Shown: positions 5,761 to 15,294 of the stretch, piece by piece
Position numbering within the stretch: the first letter of the stretch is position 1
Layout: each line of letters begins with the position of its first letter
From: Natronococcus sp. A-GB1
Lineage (GTDB): Archaea; Halobacteriota; Halobacteria; Halobacteriales; Natrialbaceae
Length of the DNA stretch: 64,000 bases
Reading direction: 5' to 3'
Assembly (NCBI RefSeq): GCF_029688845.1
Contig: NZ_JARUKW010000016.1
Coordinates: 1-64,000, forward strand
Position numbers and translations under genes: made by a program
The notes under the pieces: model-generated
Databases searched by the model: none
Seen by the model: the letters and a program-made list of their open reading frames with translations, nothing else
What the model was told of the DNA's origin: nothing

Positions 5761-7479
5761 TCACTCCGACAGCGAGAAGACCGCCAGGCGCGTGTCGCGG
5801 CCGCCGGCGCCGCGCCGGAGCCAGCCGCTGCCGCCGACCTGGATCGCGACGTACTGTTTCTCCGTCTCGGGGTCGTACCAGCTCATCGGGCTGCCGGCGA
5901 TCGACGCCTCGCCGAGGTCGTACTCCCAGAGGCGGTCGCCGCTCTCGCCGTCGTAGGCGATGAAGTCGCCGTTCTGGGTGCCGGTGAAGACGACGCCGGT
6001 CTCGGTCGTCACCATGCCGCCCCAGATGTATGCCTCGCTCTCGATCCAGTCGCGCCAGACCCGCTCGCCGGTTTCGGGGTTAATCGCGACGATGGCGCTG
6101 ATCTTCCCGTTGTACTCGTCGGGAACTGCTTCGGTCTGGTCCTCTAAGATTCCGCCCCAGTACTTTTTGCCCTCCTCGTACTCCTCGAAGCGCCACCAGG
6201 CTTCCTGGGGCGAGTTGTTCATCTTCATGTACGCGAGCCCGGTCTCGGGATTGTAGGCTGGCGGTTGCCAGTCGTTGCCCCCCATCGCGCCGGGCATGAA
6301 CGGCATCCGACGTCCCTCGTCGATGTGCGGGATCATCCGGTACATGTTCAGCTGCTGGACGCCGGGTTCGCTGCGTTCGATGAGCTCGCCCGTGTCGGCG
6401 TCCATCGTGTAGAGCCAGGCGGTCTTGCCCGCGGAAACGACGACGTCTTTCGTCGTGTTGCGGTGGTCGATCTCCATATCCCGGATGAGGATCCGCGGTG
6501 CCGCCGAGTCGTAGTCCCAGACGTCGTGTGCGACCTCCTGGTGGGCCCACAGCCGTTCACCGGTGTCCATATCGAGCGCGAGCGTCCCGCAGCTGTTGCG
6601 GTTCGGCCCCGGACGGACGGAGCCGTCGAAGTCCGGACCCGGGTTACCGATCGGCAAGTAGAGTCGCCGCTTCTCGACGTCGATCGTCGCGTTCATCCAG
6701 TTCGTCGCACAGGACTGGTTGATGCTGTCGCCGACCCACTCGGTCTCGGGTGAGGTCCAGGTGTGCCACAGCTCCTCGCCGGTCTCGGCGTCAAGCGCCT
6801 TGTGGAACCCGCGAACGCCGTACTCGCCGCCGGCGCTGCCGGTGAAGATCATTCCGTCGAACGCGACCGGCGCCCAGGTTGCGGAGTACCCCTCCTCGTG
6901 GTCGGCGGTCGAGGTGTACCACTCCTCCTCGCCGGTGTAGCGATCGAGAGCGACGACGCCCGAGTCGAGCGTCGTCATGAACACCTTGTCGCCGTAGGCG
7001 GCGACGCCGCGGTTGTTGTCGTCACAGCAGAGCACGACGTCCGAGGGGACGGCGTACGTGTAGCTCCAGAGGATGTCACCCTCCCGAGCGTCGATGGCCT
7101 TGACGTGGTTCGGGCCGTTCGACTGATACATGATCGGCGGATCGCCCGGCACGATCAGCGGCGTCCCCTCCATGCTCGAGCCGGCGCCGACGTCGAGCAT
7201 ATACTCTACCTCGAGGTCGGCGACGTTGTCGGGCGTGATGACGTCGGCCGTCGTCCGGCGGTGTTGTTCGTAGTTCCCGCCGTAAGTGAGCCAGGCCTCC
7301 GGGTTCTCACCCGACTCCTGGATCATCTCGTTTGTGACGTCGAACTCCTCGATCCGATCGACGTCGTGCTGGTGTGTTACCGATTTCTCGGGGGATCCGA
7401 GCACGCGGAACCCCTGGTCTGTCTCCCTAACAACCGTATCTTTTGCGGCCTGTACGGCCCTGTCTTCTTCGAGTGACAT
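5761..7479 (-). CDS. PQQ-dependent (quinoprotein) dehydrogenase, lanthanide-type metal signature, no signal peptide
   Basis: A 572-residue eight-bladed propeller of the methanol/ethanol quinoprotein dehydrogenase family. It begins with the family start pattern (NPEAWLTYGGNYEQHRR). It has the adjacent disulfide cysteines VLCCDDNN, the metal ligand Glu in GSAGGEYGVRG, the metal ligand Asn in TNWMNATID, and catalytic Asp in HDVWDYDSA. The residue two after the catalytic Asp is also Asp (DYD), which in XoxF and ExaF marks lanthanide rather than calcium. W-docking repeats of the form ALDxxTGExxW recur. Such enzymes normally work outside the membrane, yet there is no Tat or Sec signal. The start sits 6 bases after the partner gene, leaving no room for one. 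The alcohol or sugar substrate is not predictable. Confidence 0.9.
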   Translation of the reverse strand: MSLEEDRAVQAAKDTVVRETDQGFRVLGSPEKSVTHQHDVDRIEEFDVTNEMIQESGENPEAWLTYGGNYEQHRRTTADVITPDNVADLEVEYMLDVGAGSSMEGTPLIVPGDPPIMYQSNGPNHVKAIDAREGDILWSYTYAVPSDVVLCCDDNNRGVAAYGDKVFMTTLDSGVVALDRYTGEEEWYTSTADHEEGYSATWAPVAFDGMIFTGSAGGEYGVRGFHKALDAETGEELWHTWTSPETEWVGDSINQSCATNWMNATIDVEKRRLYLPIGNPGPDFDGSVRPGPNRNSCGTLALDMDTGERLWAHQEVAHDVWDYDSAAPRILIRDMEIDHRNTTKDVVVSAGKTAWLYTMDADTGELIERSEPGVQQLNMYRMIPHIDEGRRMPFMPGAMGGNDWQPPAYNPETGLAYMKMNNSPQEAWWRFEEYEEGKKYWGGILEDQTEAVPDEYNGKISAIVAINPETGERVWRDWIESEAYIWGGMVTTETGVVFTGTQNGDFIAYDGESGDRLWEYDLGEASIAGSPMSWYDPETEKQYVAIQVGGSGWLRRGAGGRDTRLAVFSLSE

Positions 7480-7485
7480 TGATGA

Positions 7486-8388
7486 TTACCTCGCTTCGGA
7501 TGGCGCACGCATCTCTTCCGTGATCCAGAACATGTTCTTGCAGATCTCCTCCTGATTGACGATCATGATCGCCGCACCGGCGGTGATCGCGGCGGTCAGC
7601 TGCGAGTCGGTCAGTCCCTCCTCGCGGGTGATATCGAGCGCCGCCTGCGCCAGCAGGTGGAACCCGCCGAGCAGCGCCTTGATATCCCAGTAGCCGTCGT
7701 CGAGAATCTCGTCGGTGACGAGAACCCGGTTCTGCCAGAGGTGGACGTCCAGTGCGTCGACCCAGAGCAGCGTCCCGCCGGCCGCCCGCTGGTGGAGCGG
7801 CGGAACGTGTTCGACGCCGAACTCCACCTCGGCGGGGATCTCCTTCGTCGGGACCCACCGAGCGAGCCGGTCGTTGTTGTTCGTGACGTCCATGACGAGC
7901 GCGATTCGCTCTTGCTCGTCGAACCCGAGCGCCTCGAGTTCGGCCGTCAGCTCGTCGGTGGCGATCAGCTCGTGGGCCGTCCCCTCGATGTGTTCCGGCG
8001 TGAACCGCGGCAGATTCGCCTCGAGACTCTCGAAGAAGTCGACGTCGACGAGATGGTCGTAGATCTCCCAGCCGGGTTCGGCGAGTTCGCGATAGAGCAC
8101 CTCCGCTTCGGTCTCACCCTCCGGGATTCCCTGTTCCCGGACCTCCGGCAGGCGCTCGAGCTGTCTCGAGAGCTCCTCGAGTTGCGTCTCGAGCAACTCG
8201 GCGTCCAGCTTCCCCGAGAGATCGCTCCGAATCGATTCGCCCATCGAGGCGAACTCGGGATCGTCCGTCCGCTCTACCTCGTCGCGCAGCCGCTCGATCG
8301 TCAGCTGATCGCCGTCGCGGACCTCATCGACGTCGAGCGTCCGGGCTAGCTGTCGTTGTGCCTCGTCCGTAATCTGTGCCGTCGTCAT
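7486..8388 (-). CDS. Unrecognised protein encoded upstream of the PQQ dehydrogenase
   Basis: A 300-residue acidic soluble protein with no family I recognise. Residues 1-110 are charged and helical (DAELLETQLEELSRQLERL looks like a coiled coil). Residues 110-300 look globular, with tryptophan- and histidine-containing motifs (VEHVPPLHQRAAGGTLLWVDALDVHLWQNRVLV) and a single cysteine near the end (EEICKNMFWITEE). No signal peptide or membrane segment. It is first in a two-gene operon, 6 bases ahead of the quinoprotein gene, so it may be a chaperone, cofactor or metal loader, or subunit of that enzyme. That role is inferred from position only. Confidence 0.8.
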   Translation of the reverse strand: MTTAQITDEAQRQLARTLDVDEVRDGDQLTIERLRDEVERTDDPEFASMGESIRSDLSGKLDAELLETQLEELSRQLERLPEVREQGIPEGETEAEVLYRELAEPGWEIYDHLVDVDFFESLEANLPRFTPEHIEGTAHELIATDELTAELEALGFDEQERIALVMDVTNNNDRLARWVPTKEIPAEVEFGVEHVPPLHQRAAGGTLLWVDALDVHLWQNRVLVTDEILDDGYWDIKALLGGFHLLAQAALDITREEGLTDSQLTAAITAGAAIMIVNQEEICKNMFWITEEMRAPSEAR

Positions 8389-8771: not shown

Positions 8772-9848
8772 GTGAATTACACACAAAGTACGCGACGTGG
8801 GGTCCTCGCCCTCGGTGGCGCGGTCGCCCTCTCGGGGTGTGCCGGTCGGCTCAGCGGGAACGGGGACGGCGATCCGTCCGCGGAGGACGGGGTCGCGGTA
8901 GAGTCCGTATCGCTACTGCTCAACTGGAACATAGGTGGACTTCACACGCCCTACGTTGCCGCCCGCGAGAACGGGTTCTACGAGGAGGAGGGGTTTACCG
9001 ACGTCGAGTTCGAGAGCGGCGATGGCTCCGACTTCGCAGCGAACCAGGCCGGACTCGGCAACACCGAGTTCGCGATCTCGAGCGGTGACCAGATCCTGAC
9101 GGTCAACAGCAACGAGCTGTCCCCGCGGGCGGTCGGCATCGTTATGCAGCGAAACCCGAACGTCGTCTTCGCCGACCGCGAGGGGTTCGGCGAACTCACC
9201 GACCCCGACCAGCTCGAGGGCGTCACGGTCGGGAGCGGTCCGGGGATGGTCCGGACGATGACCGAGGCGTACCTCGATCATCACGACCTCCTCGACACCG
9301 TCGAGTACGTCGACGCCGGCTTCGACACCGTCCAGCAGCTGCTGGCCGGCGAGATCGACGTGGCGGGCGGCGTCTTCAGCGACGTCGTCGACGCCAGACA
9401 CCAGGACCGGGAGATCGACGTCCTCGAGATCGAAGACGCCGTCTCCTCCTACGGCCACCTGATCACGACTGACGAATCCTTCGCCGAGGAGAACCCGGAC
9501 ACGGTCGAGGCGTTCCTCCGGGCGACCGCGAGGGGCGCCGTCTGGGCGGCCCAGAATCCGGACGAGGCGATCGACCACCTCGTCGACGTCCAGCCCGAAC
9601 TCGAGGAGACCCGGGAGAACCAGGCCGACAAGTGGGAGGAGATGTACACCGGGTACATGCTCTCGGAGACGGTCGAGACGGAGGGCTGGGGAGCGAGCGC
9701 TCCGGAGCCGTGGGAGGAAACCCACGACGTGCTCGCCGACGGCGACGCCCTCGAGAACGAGGTCGACCCGGCCGACGTCTGGACGAACGACTACCTCGAC
9801 GCCGAGGACGAGTACGTCGCGGAGTTCGCCGACCGAATCGATGAGTAG
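8772..9848 (+). CDS. ABC transporter substrate-binding lipoprotein, NMT1/THI5 (SsuA/ThiY) family
   Basis: A 358-residue protein starting at GTG. The twin-arginine signal TRRGVLALGGAVALSGC ends in a lipobox, so it is exported by Tat and lipid-anchored outside. The mature part starts SVSLLLNWNIGGLHTPYVAA, the family signature, and has the two-lobe pattern (EGVTVGSGPGMVRTMTEAYL, then LAGEIDVAGGVFSD). Relatives bind pyrimidine thiamine precursors, sulfonates, nitrate or riboflavin. The ligand here is unknown. Upstream in-frame ATG codons at 8637 and later are rejected because the TATA box and the signal peptide both fit the later GTG. The permease follows after 39 bases. Confidence 0.9.
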   Translation: MNYTQSTRRGVLALGGAVALSGCAGRLSGNGDGDPSAEDGVAVESVSLLLNWNIGGLHTPYVAARENGFYEEEGFTDVEFESGDGSDFAANQAGLGNTEFAISSGDQILTVNSNELSPRAVGIVMQRNPNVVFADREGFGELTDPDQLEGVTVGSGPGMVRTMTEAYLDHHDLLDTVEYVDAGFDTVQQLLAGEIDVAGGVFSDVVDARHQDREIDVLEIEDAVSSYGHLITTDESFAEENPDTVEAFLRATARGAVWAAQNPDEAIDHLVDVQPELEETRENQADKWEEMYTGYMLSETVETEGWGASAPEPWEETHDVLADGDALENEVDPADVWTNDYLDAEDEYVAEFADRIDE

Positions 9849-9887: not shown

Positions 9888-10718
9888 ATGATCGACGAGC
9901 AGGCCGACCGACGCGGCGGGCGACGGCTCGAGCGGGTCCCGAGCAGTCGCGACGTCCTCGAGGGCTCCCAAACGGTCGTCCACGGGCTCGTGATGCGGCT
10001 GCTCCCGCCGACGATCGTGTTCGTCCTGTTGCTCTTGGCGTGGCACGGCGCCGTCGTCTACTACGACGTGCCGACGATCGTGTTGCCGTCGCCGGCCGAG
10101 GTCGGGGCGACGCTCGCCGAGACGTATCCGACGCTGCTCGGCGACGCCGCCGTCACGGCGGCAACGGCTGGAATCGGACTCGTCGCCGGCACCGTCGTCG
10201 GCGCCGGCCTCGCCTTCGCGATGATCGGCTCCCGTCGAGCGGCGAGCACGATCCTCCCGTACGTCGTCGCGCTCCGCATCGCGCCGGTGATCGCGATCGC
10301 CCCGCTGTTGTTCCTGTGGTTCGGCCGCGGCGTTCCCGCCCGAGCGCTGGTCGTCACCACGCTGACGGTGTTCCCGATCACGATCGCGACCCTCGACGGG
10401 CTTCGCGGCACCCCGGAGTCGTATCTCGAGCTACTGCGGACGGTCGACGCGTCGCCGACGGCGGTTTTCGTCCACGTTCGGATCCCCGCGGCCGCACCGA
10501 GCGTCTTCGCCGGACTCAAGATCGCCGCGACGCTGTCGGTCATCGGCGCGGTCGTCGCCGAGTTCGTCACGCTCAACGCCGGGCTCGGCTACCGGGTGTT
10601 CGAGACGGCGGCGTACCTCCGGACCGCGGAGACCTACGCCGCGCTGGTCGTCCTCTCCGTGGTCGGTATCGGCTTCTATCTCGTTCCCGTCGCCCTCGAG
10701 CGCGCGTTCTGGCACTGA
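9888..10718 (+). CDS. ABC transporter permease, ThiX/SsuC type (first of two)
   Basis: A 276-residue protein with about six membrane segments. The first is near 34-55 (PTIVFVLLLLAWHGAVVYY) and later ones include AAVTAATAGIGLVAGTVVGAG and TLSVIGAVVAEFVTL. The cytoplasmic coupling loop reads ELLRTVDASPTAVFVHVRIPAAAPSVFAGLKIA, which carries the EAA-type motif that contacts the ATPase. It pairs with the binding protein just upstream. It converges on a second permease gene of the same family, with 32 bases between the stops. Confidence 0.9.
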   Translation: MIDEQADRRGGRRLERVPSSRDVLEGSQTVVHGLVMRLLPPTIVFVLLLLAWHGAVVYYDVPTIVLPSPAEVGATLAETYPTLLGDAAVTAATAGIGLVAGTVVGAGLAFAMIGSRRAASTILPYVVALRIAPVIAIAPLLFLWFGRGVPARALVVTTLTVFPITIATLDGLRGTPESYLELLRTVDASPTAVFVHVRIPAAAPSVFAGLKIAATLSVIGAVVAEFVTLNAGLGYRVFETAAYLRTAETYAALVVLSVVGIGFYLVPVALERAFWH

Positions 10719-10750: not shown

Positions 10751-11527
10751 TCAGTCGAGGGTCTCGAGCCCGAGCCGTTCGTGGACGCGTCGCTGGACGA
10801 GGACGACGATCCCGTACAGCGCCAGTCCCACGAGCAACAGGACGACAAGCGCCGCGAGCATGACGTCGGGGCGAACGTTCTCCGACCCCATCAGGATGAG
10901 AAATCCCAGCCCGTTGTCGGCGACGACCCACTCCGCGACGACCGCGCCGACGACCGCGAGGGTCACCGACTGTTTCAGGCCGGCGAAGATGTCGGGGACT
11001 GCGTAGGGAACGTCGACGTACAGAATCCGCTCGATCGGCCCGGCGTCGACCGACCGCAGCAGGTCGTGGTGGGCCGTCGGCGTGCGATCGAGCCCCGCCG
11101 CGGTGTTCAACACGAGCGGGAAGAAGGTGATGAGCGCGACGAAGACGATCGCCGTCGTCATTCCCGTGCCCAGATAGATGAGCAACAGCGGGGCGATCGC
11201 GAGCTTCGGCAACACCCGGACCGTCACGAGGTAGGGATAGACCGCCCGGCGAAACCACGGGACGTACGCGACGAAGGCGGCGAGGGCGATTCCCGCCCCG
11301 ATTCCGACCGCGCCGCCGTAGACGACCTTCTCGAGGGTAAACAGCGCGTTCACGAGGTACAGCTCCGGATTGCCGGCCAGCCGCGCGACGACGGCGTCGG
11401 GAGCGGGAAGGAGAAACGGCGGGATGTCGCCGAGGGCCGTCAGCGCCCACCAAAGTGCAACGCCCGCACAGAGCGCGCTCGCGGGGTAGACGGCGCGACT
11501 TCCGCCGACGCCGATCCGTTCAGTCAT
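10751..11527 (-). CDS. ABC transporter permease, ThiX/SsuC type (second of two)
   Basis: A 258-residue membrane protein of the same family as the convergent permease. The coupling loop is HHDLLRSVDAGPIERILYVDVPYAVPDIFAGLKQS, followed by VTLAVVGAVVAEWVVADNGLG. The start at 11527 (MTERIG) overlaps the end of the ATPase gene by 8 bases, so the two are cotranscribed. With the first permease it could form a heterodimeric channel, or each may serve a separate binding protein. Confidence 0.88.
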   Translation of the reverse strand: MTERIGVGGSRAVYPASALCAGVALWWALTALGDIPPFLLPAPDAVVARLAGNPELYLVNALFTLEKVVYGGAVGIGAGIALAAFVAYVPWFRRAVYPYLVTVRVLPKLAIAPLLLIYLGTGMTTAIVFVALITFFPLVLNTAAGLDRTPTAHHDLLRSVDAGPIERILYVDVPYAVPDIFAGLKQSVTLAVVGAVVAEWVVADNGLGFLILMGSENVRPDVMLAALVVLLLVGLALYGIVVLVQRRVHERLGLETLD

Positions 11528-12263
11528 AGCTCTCGTGCAGCGTCCGGCGGACGGCCGCAACCTGTTCTTGGAACGCCCCCGAGCCGAGCGATTCCGTGTC
11601 CCGGGGTTCAGGAAGGTCGATGTCGAACGTCGCCTCGATCCGTCCCGGCTGATCGCGCATCACGACGCACCGATCACCGAGGAACACCGCCTCGGGGACG
11701 CTGTGAGTGACGAAGACGATCGTCTTCCGCTCGCGACGCCAGAGCGACCTGATCTCGACGCCGAGCTCGTCGCGGGTGATCTCGTCGAGTTCGCCGAACG
11801 GCTCGTCCATCAACAGCACGTCCGCCCCGAGGTGGATCGCTCGAGCGATGGCGACACGCTGTTTCATCCCGCCCGAGAGCGCGGCCGGCCGGGCGTCCTC
11901 GAACCCGTCGAGCCCCATCGTCTCGAGCAACGCCCGCGCGCCCTCGCGAGCCGGTGGCTTGTCGGCCATTTTCCGGAGAAAGACGACGTTCTCGAGGGCG
12001 CTTTTCCAGGGGAGCAGCGTGTGTTGCTGGAAGACGAACCCGACGTCGCCCGCCTCCTGTGCGACCGACGGCGATCGGCCGTCGATGGTCACGCGCCCGG
12101 TCGTCGGCTCCTGGAGCCCGCCGATCGCGCGCAGCAGCGTCGTCTTCCCGCAGCCCGAGGGGCCGACGACGGTGACGAACTCCCCGTCGTCGACCCCGAA
12201 ATCGACGTCGGCGACCGCGGTGAACTCGTCGAACGCGATGCCGACGCTCTCGAGGTCGATCAC
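11520..12263 (-). CDS. ABC transporter ATP-binding protein, SsuB/TauB/ThiZ type
   Basis: A complete 247-residue nucleotide-binding domain. Walker A GPSGCGKTT is near residue 34, the Q-loop region VFQQHTLLPWKSALENV near 78, the signature LSGGMKQR near 128, Walker B LLMDEPFGELD near 150 and the switch His in FVTHSVPEA near 187. It is the only ATPase in the locus, so it must serve both permeases unless another gene elsewhere helps. Its start overlaps the stop of the helix-turn-helix fusion gene by 4 bases. Confidence 0.93.
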   Translation of the reverse strand: MIDLESVGIAFDEFTAVADVDFGVDDGEFVTVVGPSGCGKTTLLRAIGGLQEPTTGRVTIDGRSPSVAQEAGDVGFVFQQHTLLPWKSALENVVFLRKMADKPPAREGARALLETMGLDGFEDARPAALSGGMKQRVAIARAIHLGADVLLMDEPFGELDEITRDELGVEIRSLWRRERKTIVFVTHSVPEAVFLGDRCVVMRDQPGRIEATFDIDLPEPRDTESLGSGAFQEQVAAVRRTLHESYD

Positions 12264-13525
12264 GTTCCCTCCGCGAGCAGCTCCCCCTGCTCGAGCGCCG
12301 TTCGGAGTCGATCCCAGGTTCGCTCGCGCTGCCAGCCCCAGCCGCGTTCGCGCGTGTCGTCGCTGTGCCCGAACTCCCGGACCGCTCGCTCGAACGTCTC
12401 CCGAACGCGCTCGGGCTCGTCGTCGCCGCGATCGGCGATTCGCGCCGCTGCCGGGTCGGGGTCGCGGGTCGCCTCCCGCCAGCCGCCGGCCGTCCCCGCG
12501 AGGAGGGACTCGAGCGACGACCGACGCCGCTCCAGCGCCTGTTCTCGGGCGACAATCGTCGGCCCGTAGACCGGGAAGTGGTCGGTGAGCAACAGCGTGT
12601 CGACGGTCTCGCCGCGTTCCTCGAGCTGTCGCGGGTCGGTGATGGAGCCGGTGACGACGTCGGCCTCGCCGGCTAGCAGCGCCGTCCGTTCCTCGCCGGT
12701 CGTCTCCTCGATCTCGAGATCCCCCTCGAGGGCCGTCTGGGAGACGAACAGACGACCGAGCACTCCCGTCTCGGAACGGGCGGGCATGCCGATCCGCTGG
12801 CCTCGAAGCTGGTCGACGCCGCGAAGCTCCGCGCCGAAGACGTCGCGGGTGGAGTACAGCACCGTCATCGCGCGCTGGTAAAGGACCGCGATCGGTACGA
12901 TCGGTACGCCGGCCGCCCTGGCCCGGAGGACGGTCGCGGCGCCGGCGACCGCGACGTCCGCCTCGCCGGCGGCGATCCGATCGACCGCGCGTCGGGATCC
13001 CTCATGGTGTTCGAACCCGACGCCGACCCCGTACTCGTCGTACCAGCCCGACTCGGCGGCCGCGTACAGCGGAACGTGAAGCCCGTTCGGTCGCCAGTTC
13101 AGCGCGACGGTCATCTTCGGCTCGTCAGCCGCCTTTGGCTCCCGGTTCGTCGCGTCCTCCCGGAAGATCTCGTCCGCCCGCTCGAGCAGCGTCGCCGCGT
13201 GTCGCTCGTACACCCGACGGCGGCTCGAGGCGAGGTCATCGGTTGGTCGCCACGCCGACGGCGGCCGTCCCTGGTTGACGCTCGCGACCGTGGAGCGCTC
13301 GATCAGTCCGTCGGCCTCGAGCCGGGTGACCGCGTCGCTGATCGGCGATCGGCTCAGCTCGGTTCCGACCCGGAGCTGGATCGTCGTCGCGGGGTCGTCC
13401 TCGCGGTCGGCCCGCAACAACAGGTATGCCAGGACCCGTGCGGGCGTCCGTCCGAGCCCGACGGCGAGGTCGTCGACGATCGGTCGATCCTCGTCGTCGA
13501 GCACCCAGAACGTTCGCGAACGCAT
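12260..13525 (-). CDS. Winged-helix regulator fused to an NMT1/THI5-type ligand-binding domain
   Basis: A 421-residue fusion. Residues about 1-95 form a TrmB/MarR-like winged helix (LGRTPARVLAYLLLR, then TELSRSPISDAVTRLEADGLIERSTV as the helix-turn-helix, then a wing rich in proline and arginine). A linker runs to about 130. Residues about 133-400 are a full NMT1/THI5 binding protein: MTVALNWRPNGLHVPLYAAA, GEADVAVAGAATVLRA, LRGQRIGMPARSETGVLG. There is no signal peptide or lipobox, so the binding domain is cytoplasmic and probably senses the transported compound. It is first in the operon with the ATPase and second permease. Operator-like repeats lie 5-32 bases before its ATG. Confidence 0.88.
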   Translation of the reverse strand: MRSRTFWVLDDEDRPIVDDLAVGLGRTPARVLAYLLLRADREDDPATTIQLRVGTELSRSPISDAVTRLEADGLIERSTVASVNQGRPPSAWRPTDDLASSRRRVYERHAATLLERADEIFREDATNREPKAADEPKMTVALNWRPNGLHVPLYAAAESGWYDEYGVGVGFEHHEGSRRAVDRIAAGEADVAVAGAATVLRARAAGVPIVPIAVLYQRAMTVLYSTRDVFGAELRGVDQLRGQRIGMPARSETGVLGRLFVSQTALEGDLEIEETTGEERTALLAGEADVVTGSITDPRQLEERGETVDTLLLTDHFPVYGPTIVAREQALERRRSSLESLLAGTAGGWREATRDPDPAAARIADRGDDEPERVRETFERAVREFGHSDDTRERGWGWQRERTWDRLRTALEQGELLAEGT

Positions 13526-13529
13526 TCGT

Positions 13530-13557
13530 CATAACGGATTATGTGAGACCGCATAAT
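13530..13557. promoter_or_regulatory. Operator-like repeat in promoter of the winged-helix fusion gene
   Basis: CATAACGGAT (13530-13539) is followed by an inverted pair ATTATG (13538-13543) and CATAAT (13552-13557). On the minus strand this reads ATTATGCGGTCT and then ATCCGTTATG. Both elements recur in the control region at 8406-8517. The site sits where a bound protein would block transcription start, consistent with autoregulation. Confidence 0.55.
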
Positions 13558-13612: not shown

Positions 13613-13777
13613 CTACCGGTGGTTCGCCGCACGGTGGTCGACTCGCGTCGGCTTGACCTTGCCGTGTTGCTCGAGCTCGTGGGCGTTGAGTCGCCGCTGG
13701 AGGTCGGCGCTCGAGGTGACGGCGAAGTACATTTCACACACTGGACACTTATCGACGAGTAGATCGTTCGAACTCAT
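13613..13777 (-). CDS. Small C2H2-like zinc-finger protein
   Basis: A 54-residue protein starting MSSNDLLVDK. One finger is visible: C-x2-C (KCPVCEMYF), then H-x4-H (LNAHELEQH) after a 16-residue spacer (FAVTSSADLQRRLNAH). The C-terminus is basic. Single-finger small proteins are common in haloarchaea, some with regulatory roles, but no specific function can be assigned. Upstream on its strand a TATA-like TAAAAAGG lies near 13875-13885, which would imply a leader of about 80 bases. Confidence 0.7.
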   Translation of the reverse strand: MSSNDLLVDKCPVCEMYFAVTSSADLQRRLNAHELEQHGKVKPTRVDHRAANHR

Positions 13778-14032: not shown

Positions 14033-14212
14033 ATGGATCCGTACACCGACGATCTCCGACTGCCGCGGGCCCGCCTCGAGCCGGACACGCGGGCGACCGT
14101 TCGCTGTCGGAACTGCCAGGCAACGTTTTCCCGGCGGGACGTTGACCTCCCGACAAAGGGAACGCTTCGGTGCCCCGAGTGTCACTCCGGCCCGATCGAC
14201 GACCTCGACTGA
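14033..14212 (+). CDS. Small zinc-ribbon protein (59 residues)
   Basis: ATG at 14033 to TGA at 14212 encodes MDPYTDDLRLPRARLEPDTR followed by a zinc ribbon with C-x2-C (VRCRNCQATF) and, 20 residues on, C-x2-C-H (RCPECHSG). The compact four-cysteine ribbon, codon use and acidic C-terminus support a real gene despite its size. Function unknown; similar minis bind nucleic acid or partner proteins. It precedes the zinc-ribbon membrane protein gene at 14419 on the same strand. Confidence 0.7.
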   Translation: MDPYTDDLRLPRARLEPDTRATVRCRNCQATFSRRDVDLPTKGTLRCPECHSGPIDDLD

Positions 14213-14418
14213 GGCGGAACGGCGTCCACCGGTGCCGACGACGCTACTGGCTGCCCGTGGACAGGCAACGCAAGGTCGGTAGCCCGCCTGACAACGCTAT
14301 CGAGTCCGTCACTGGGCAGGACCTCGAGAAATCTGGGTACGGTCTCGTCGAGGGCAGATCGTTCGAATCCGTCGCGAACGTTTTTGCCGTACAGCGTGGT
14401 ACCCTCTCACAGTACCCA

Positions 14419-15294
14419 ATGCGCCTCTCTCCCATAGATGTCGGATCCGTTCGACAGCCGGAGTACACGGGCGAGAACCGCTGTCTACCGTGTACGGCCG
14501 TCAACGCGGTGATCGCACTCGTCCTGGCGGCGACGCTGGGAATCGTTACGACTAGCCTACTTGGGGTGGTCGCGCTCGGCGGCTTCCTCGCGGCGATCTA
14601 CCTCCGTGGCTATCTCGTCCCGGGAACGCCGGCACTCACTGAGCGCTACCTTCCGGCGTCGATCCTTCGGCTGTTCGGAAAGGAACCGATCGCATCCCGT
14701 TCGCTCGAGGGAACCTCTTCGGAGACGCCCTGGGAGCAACTCGCCGCTGCCGGGGTCGCTGACCGACCGTCCGAGGGAACACTCTCGTTGACCGACTGGT
14801 TCCGAGAGGCGTTCCGCGTTGAAGTCAGTCGCCGCGAGTCGGCGCCGGGAGCCGACGACGTCGAGGCGCTCGCAGCGGTCTCCGAGGCCGTCGAACGCGG
14901 GCCGCGGGCATACTCGATCGATGGCAACCGGCTCCTCCGCTGGGAGTCCGACGCCGCGCTCGTCGCCGACGCCGCGTCCGCGTCGGTCCTCCGTGAGACG
15001 GTCGATGACTGGTCGGATCTCGAGCGTGACGACCGCCTGGCGCTTCTCGAGCGGATCCGGCTCCTGCTCGAGCGCTGTCCGAGCTGTGACGGGCCGGTCG
15101 ATCGAAACGACGAACGGATCGACCCGTGCTGCCAGCCCCCACACGTCGCCGTCTGGACGGTCTGTCGGGACTGTGACGCCGTCCTCGCGGACGTGACCGC
15201 ACCCGAAGCGGACGCCGAGGCGTGGGTGGGACTACTCGGAGTCGACACGAACGAACCGACTCGAACCGACGTGCCGGAAGCGGTCGAGGGCTAG
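14419..15294 (+). CDS. Membrane protein with C-terminal zinc ribbon, uncharacterised
   Basis: A 291-residue protein starting MRLSPIDVGSVRQPEY. It has an N-terminal C-x2-C (NRCLPCTAVN), then two close hydrophobic segments at about 30-70 (VNAVIALVLAATLGIVTT and LLGVVALGGFLAAIYL). A long soluble region follows, ending in a second metal site: C-x2-C (RCPSCDGPV), CC (DPCCQPPH) and C-x2-C (TVCRDCDAV). This layout recurs in haloarchaeal hypothetical proteins; I know no function. The open frame extends upstream to 14170 but has no coding-like character there. Confidence 0.75.
   Translation: MRLSPIDVGSVRQPEYTGENRCLPCTAVNAVIALVLAATLGIVTTSLLGVVALGGFLAAIYLRGYLVPGTPALTERYLPASILRLFGKEPIASRSLEGTSSETPWEQLAAAGVADRPSEGTLSLTDWFREAFRVEVSRRESAPGADDVEALAAVSEAVERGPRAYSIDGNRLLRWESDAALVADAASASVLRETVDDWSDLERDDRLALLERIRLLLERCPSCDGPVDRNDERIDPCCQPPHVAVWTVCRDCDAVLADVTAPEADAEAWVGLLGVDTNEPTRTDVPEAVEG

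Follow-up and report, generated by a model that had tools for sequence, protein, structure and literature searches.

The haloarchaeon Natronococcus sp. A-GB1 encodes, within the stretch of 64,000 nucleotides analysed here (the window), a protein in which a winged helix is joined to an NMT1/THI5-type binding domain and which carries no signal peptide. This raises the question of what such a domain senses inside the cell and which genes it would serve. A preliminary description had proposed that the fusion senses the compound that its own operon imports and controls transcription, sensor and importer forming a self-contained unit. The features concerned are collected in Table 1, with the fusion gene abbreviated F, the ATPase A, the permeases P1 and P2 and the exported binding lipoprotein S.

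Table 1. Features of the window around the fusion gene; positions are those of the window and residues those of the F protein.
Feature	Position	Strand	Remarks
PQQ-type alcohol dehydrogenase	5761..7479	-	Motifs CC, GGEYGVRG, GNPGP, WDYD; signal peptide absent
U300, 300-aa conserved protein	7486..8388	-	Family unknown; always adjoins the dehydrogenase
S, exported NMT1-type binding lipoprotein	8772..9848	+	Twin-arginine and lipobox, RRGVLALGGAVALSGC
P2, second ABC permease	9888..10718	+	Convergent operon
P1, ABC permease	10751..11560	-	Overlaps end of A
A, ABC transporter ATPase	11520..12263	-	Start overlaps F stop by 4 bases
F, winged helix and NMT1/THI5-type binding domain	12260..13525	-	421 aa; signal peptide absent
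NMT1/THI5-type ligand-binding domain, residues 134-413	12287..13126	-	Pfam, predicted model, structure matches
Linker helix, residues 98-121	13163..13234	-	Predicted model; possible dimer helix
Winged-helix DNA-binding domain, residues 10-96	13238..13498	-	Wing motif GRPP..W
Perfect palindrome CATAACGGATTATG in F promoter	13530..13543	.	Not conserved in relatives

The reading frame of F is complete, beginning with ATG and open throughout. Modelled with AlphaFold together with 35 homologues (38-79% identity to the window protein), F gave one confident model (pLDDT 92.2, pTM 0.91), in which helices 11-24, 26-41, 48-55 and 59-71 and strands 75-79 and 90-94 make up a winged helix that is followed by a further helix and a two-lobed binding protein (residues 137-413). 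Residues 1-128 modelled alone (pLDDT 94.9) matched archaeal and MarR winged-helix regulators, among them the Lrs14-type AbfR2 (Foldseek E 1.9e-4) and a Methanocaldococcus DNA-binding protein (VIA Z 11.5, rmsd 1.9 over 80 residues). At the level of sequence, a MarR_2 match at residues 23-78 (E 4.4e-5) reached 24.0 bits, under the Pfam cut-off of 27, and matches to MreA and Lrs14 were weak but consistent (25/29 and 11/29 homologues, respectively), with scores of 25.3 and 20.7 against curated cut-offs of 100 and 90. Judged by its model, the N-terminus has a MarR/Lrs14/TrmB-type winged-helix fold; judged by these scores, it belongs to no named family. The wing residues G86, R87, P88 and W92 are invariant across the 35 homologues. 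The expectation that the first 95 or so residues form a DNA-binding fold is thereby borne out by the model and the structure matches, and residues 10-96 would be the part that contacts DNA.

The remainder of the protein is a complete NMT1/THI5 domain, as had been described, ending at residue 413, slightly past the residue 400 given before. The PF09084 (NMT1) match spans residues 150-359 (E 8.7e-28) and passes the curated cut-off (98.1 versus 20.5 bits), as it does in 35/35 homologues. The domain matches ThiY/THI5 structures by sequence; on fold comparison the best match was likewise ThiY (3ix1; Z 29.6, rmsd 3.2, 280 residues), with a thiamin-binding protein and Thi5 as other closest structures. 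W144, N147, G176, S177, G195, A196, E252, E278 and E279 are also invariant among the 35 homologues, W144 and N147 belonging to an LNWxPN motif. Neither a signal peptide nor a lipobox was found in F, and the winged helix forms the start of all 35 aligned homologues; the two halves are fused in every one of them. A Pfam search listed no LysR-type HTH and no LysR-type substrate domain, either for F at E values up to 1 or for the 35 homologues at E values up to 0.01, and the SBP_bac_5 domain of the SgrR family was absent from the Pfam matches of both.

The preliminary description had called for a search for this domain pair across Halobacteria, and there the fusion proved to be conserved. Among the 293 genomes of the order examined, about 41 hold F, one of them (G063) with an internal deletion, leaving about 40 with the full-length gene. 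Named records contain 34 full-length fusions (matches running from query residue 1 into the C-terminal region), all from Halobacteria, including Natronococcus amylolyticus at 97% identity. Among the papers searched, none dealt with an NMT1-winged-helix fusion or with an archaeal sensor of this type, and the main text of a survey of archaeal fusions (PMC11237513) does not mention NMT1.

The steadiest partner of F is not the importer, on which the earlier reading had centred, but the PQQ-type dehydrogenase module, which had been left unconnected. The dehydrogenase is encoded in 39/41 genomes with F versus 15/252 without it (54/293 overall); because related genomes in this set of 293 are not independent, Fisher P values overstate the association and the counts themselves matter more. 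Within one genus (g2), eight genomes have F and the dehydrogenase, five have neither and one has the enzyme alone; G252, of the same genus, retains only remnants of F and U300. F stands divergent from U300-dehydrogenase across a gap of 260-330 bases in five genomes (G240, G249, G255, G214 and G288), and across 860 bases in G199. Fifteen dehydrogenase genomes lack F, which is thus dispensable for the module. Genes for an exported copper protein, a tungsten-type aldehyde oxidoreductase, a zinc alcohol dehydrogenase and a sodium/calcium exchanger-type protein also recur in the neighbourhood (L043, L044, L067 and L070).

Close orthologues of the dehydrogenase (at least 58% identity) keep the paired cysteines, the metal-site Glu and Asn and also WDYD, a motif in which the second Asp is the mark of lanthanide enzymes. 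The best matches are PedH and XoxF (PDB 6zcv, 4mae), which share the WDYD motif and paired cysteines but are periplasmic, whereas the enzyme encoded in the window lacks a signal peptide. A literature search found no paper on haloarchaeal lanthanide-type PQQ enzymes. U300 has no Pfam match. Its relatives in family f17 (L081-L093; several members named Halorussus) start with a twin-arginine-like RREFLKALGVGGAVAAGG, a start that the window U300 does not have, and because the N-termini differ, the location of the U300-dehydrogenase pair is unsure. In the same family, a related dehydrogenase frame opens with the copper-site-like CTVHPNSM.

The source genome additionally encodes, on another contig (C2), three tandem NMT1 proteins without signal peptides (T1-T2-T3, the trio; L068:9637-12509, minus strand), which in other genomes stand close to F. 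Among the 54 dehydrogenase genomes, S occurs alone in 18, the trio alone in 17 and both in 18, with a single genome, a 70% complete MAG, having neither; S or the trio is found in just 3/239 genomes without the dehydrogenase. Among the genomes with F, seven have S only, 13 the trio only and 19 both. The trio proteins are possibly enzymes or cofactor carriers. A link of T1 to PqqT, seen as a single-sequence match (E 0.44), vanished when a T1 profile was used and was dropped. The G063 genome lacks the dehydrogenase, the importer and the trio, and the ligand lobe of its F (L066:9627-10913, minus strand) is about 60 residues shorter through an in-frame loss, as would be expected if the ligand were gone.

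As to the importer, F does lie in one operon with A and P1, as had been described, and the overlap between the F stop and the ATPase start is present wherever the ATPase follows F. The layout F-A-P1 facing S and P2 was seen again in about twenty loci; two operons that face each other thus seem to supply the importer, and both permeases presumably pair with the one ATPase. The translational overlap, together with the presence of S in 26/41 F genomes, speaks for a protein whose sole ligand is the compound that its own operon imports and whose sole target is that importer. We nevertheless regard this as unlikely. In 13 F genomes with both dehydrogenase and trio, no importer binding protein was detected, and the label 'importer adjacent' switches at least six times on the F tree. 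Moreover S, a genuine exported lipoprotein that had been offered as the counterpart of the F binding domain, is only 27% identical to it, compared with 33% for the signal-less T3. F is retained where the importer is not, and therefore cannot serve the importer alone. What stands of the earlier proposal is the DNA-binding fold, the cytoplasmic binding domain, the operon and the conservation in Halobacteria; what falls is the self-contained unit.

A thiamine regulator sensing a precursor such as an HMP/FAMP-like pyrimidine is suggested by the closest structures, since these nearest solved relatives (ThiY, thiamin-binding protein and Thi5) bind thiamine pyrimidines and have an LNWxPNxxH motif in common with F. 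However, ThiC, and with it the capacity to synthesize the pyrimidine, is present in 28/35 F genomes, including the source genome, thiamine genes are not among the recurring neighbours of F, and an identity of 18-20% does not fix the ligand; this assignment is accordingly improbable. Signal-less binding-protein folds can also be enzymes, as in Thi5, or can regulate transporters, as in the NrtC and CmpC domains, which F matches at Z ~20.8. F is translationally coupled to the ATPase, and its winged helix might then serve for protein contact, in which case F would be either an enzyme or a protein that works with the transporter from the cytosol. Against such a role, Lys62 and His66 of Thi5, which we take to be catalytic (His66 also appears in the title of PDB entry 4esw), are absent from the F profile, where they align to Ala and Thr, many genomes have no importer beside F, and the wing motif GRP..W shows no variation, which fits a contact with DNA. 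We consider this the most remote of the readings weighed here.

We favour, as the best and on balance probable explanation, that F acts as a one-component transcription factor and senses, in the cytosol, a ligand belonging to the quinoprotein module. PQQ is an attractive candidate ligand because the dehydrogenase is linked to F and because PqqT, a known PQQ-binding protein (PMC12124388, PMC12828617), has the same fold as the F domain (Z 20.8), although ThiY and Thi5 score higher and are closer to it than PqqT is. A search for PqqC gave no match in 35 F genomes, but none in the control genomes either, and PqqE matches in the source genome lay below the cut-off; these searches suggest that PQQ synthesis may be absent from F genomes. 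It is a tentative and rather doubtful step further to picture F as a cytosolic sensor of PQQ, a PQQ-metal complex or a precursor, controlling in archaea a quinoprotein system of the lanthanide type that has a cofactor importer of its own and three signal-less helpers of binding-protein fold.

Candidate operators were also considered. The palindrome in the F promoter is unusual by chance (0.02 expected in the window), and the preliminary description had proposed 13530-13557 as the operator; striking as it is, the site has already changed to CATGATCTGTTACG in the two closest relatives and is absent from more distant ones, and it was rejected as an F operator. When the upstream regions of F, S and U300 were compared, no motif common to the three promoters was found. 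A 25-base element, ATAAACGTTTCCTAGAAACGTTTTA, lies upstream of T1 (for example in L067, L104 and L105), ending 25-30 bases before the start codon; it is strongly conserved and scores far above shuffles upstream of the trio, weakly before S and at chance level before F and U300. Four genomes that lack F have the element too, and for this reason it was not attributed to F. Upstream of F, a zinc-finger-like frame of 54 residues (13616-13777, minus strand) is 83-89% conserved in two genomes of the same genus, and a conserved protein of unknown family (14170-15291, plus strand) is found near F in nine loci.

In the mechanism that we propose, the N-terminal MarR/Lrs14-type winged helix would bind DNA, with F probably dimerizing through helix 98-121, while the C-terminal ThiY/THI5-type domain would take up a small cytosolic molecule, its closure altering DNA binding. 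F would most likely control its own operon (F-ATPase-permease) and with it S, P2, the dehydrogenase and U300. The ligand would most likely be a compound of the quinoprotein module, imported where the importer is present, handled by the three signal-less NMT1 proteins where it is absent, and tied to the dehydrogenase as its cofactor, cofactor precursor or substrate. F is thus best read as a regulator of a quinoprotein module in haloarchaea, with the importer as one optional component, and the earlier reading of importer control should be widened to the dehydrogenase module.

To our knowledge, the sensing half of an ABC importer set on an intracellular DNA-binding domain is a layout otherwise known from bacteria; the fusion shows that archaea have it as well, and more broadly it draws attention to a module in Halobacteria built on a PQQ-type dehydrogenase with the motif of lanthanide enzymes. 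Identifying the ligand of F would reveal the cargo of the importer and the function of the three cytosolic NMT1 proteins, and the supply of cofactor to an archaeal quinoprotein would become testable.

The principle of a binding-protein-type sensor on a DNA-binding domain is already known, from SgrR and Btr. Btr of Bacillus subtilis controls the importer of the compound it senses; it differs from F in being bacterial, with an AraC-type HTH and a siderophore-binding domain. In LysR-type regulators a single chain carries a winged helix, a linker helix and a binding-protein fold of type 2, the same layout as in F, yet F matches neither LysR Pfam domain and looks like a separate invention of that layout. 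The C-terminal regulatory domains of NrtC and CmpC, which sense for a transporter, are cytosolic binding-protein folds as in F, but they are fused to an ATPase and act on transport rather than on DNA. ThiY and Thi5 (PDB 3ix1, 4h65, 4esx) are nearest to the ligand domain by sequence and fold; ThiY, however, is exported, Thi5 is an enzyme whose Lys and His are missing in F, and neither has a winged helix. SgrR joins an N-terminal HTH to a C-terminal solute-binding domain in the cytosol and regulates itself (PMC13060122). Together with Vibrio DsvR it resembles F in this arrangement, but both are bacterial, with SBP_bac_5 in place of NMT1, another HTH and no tie to a quinoprotein.
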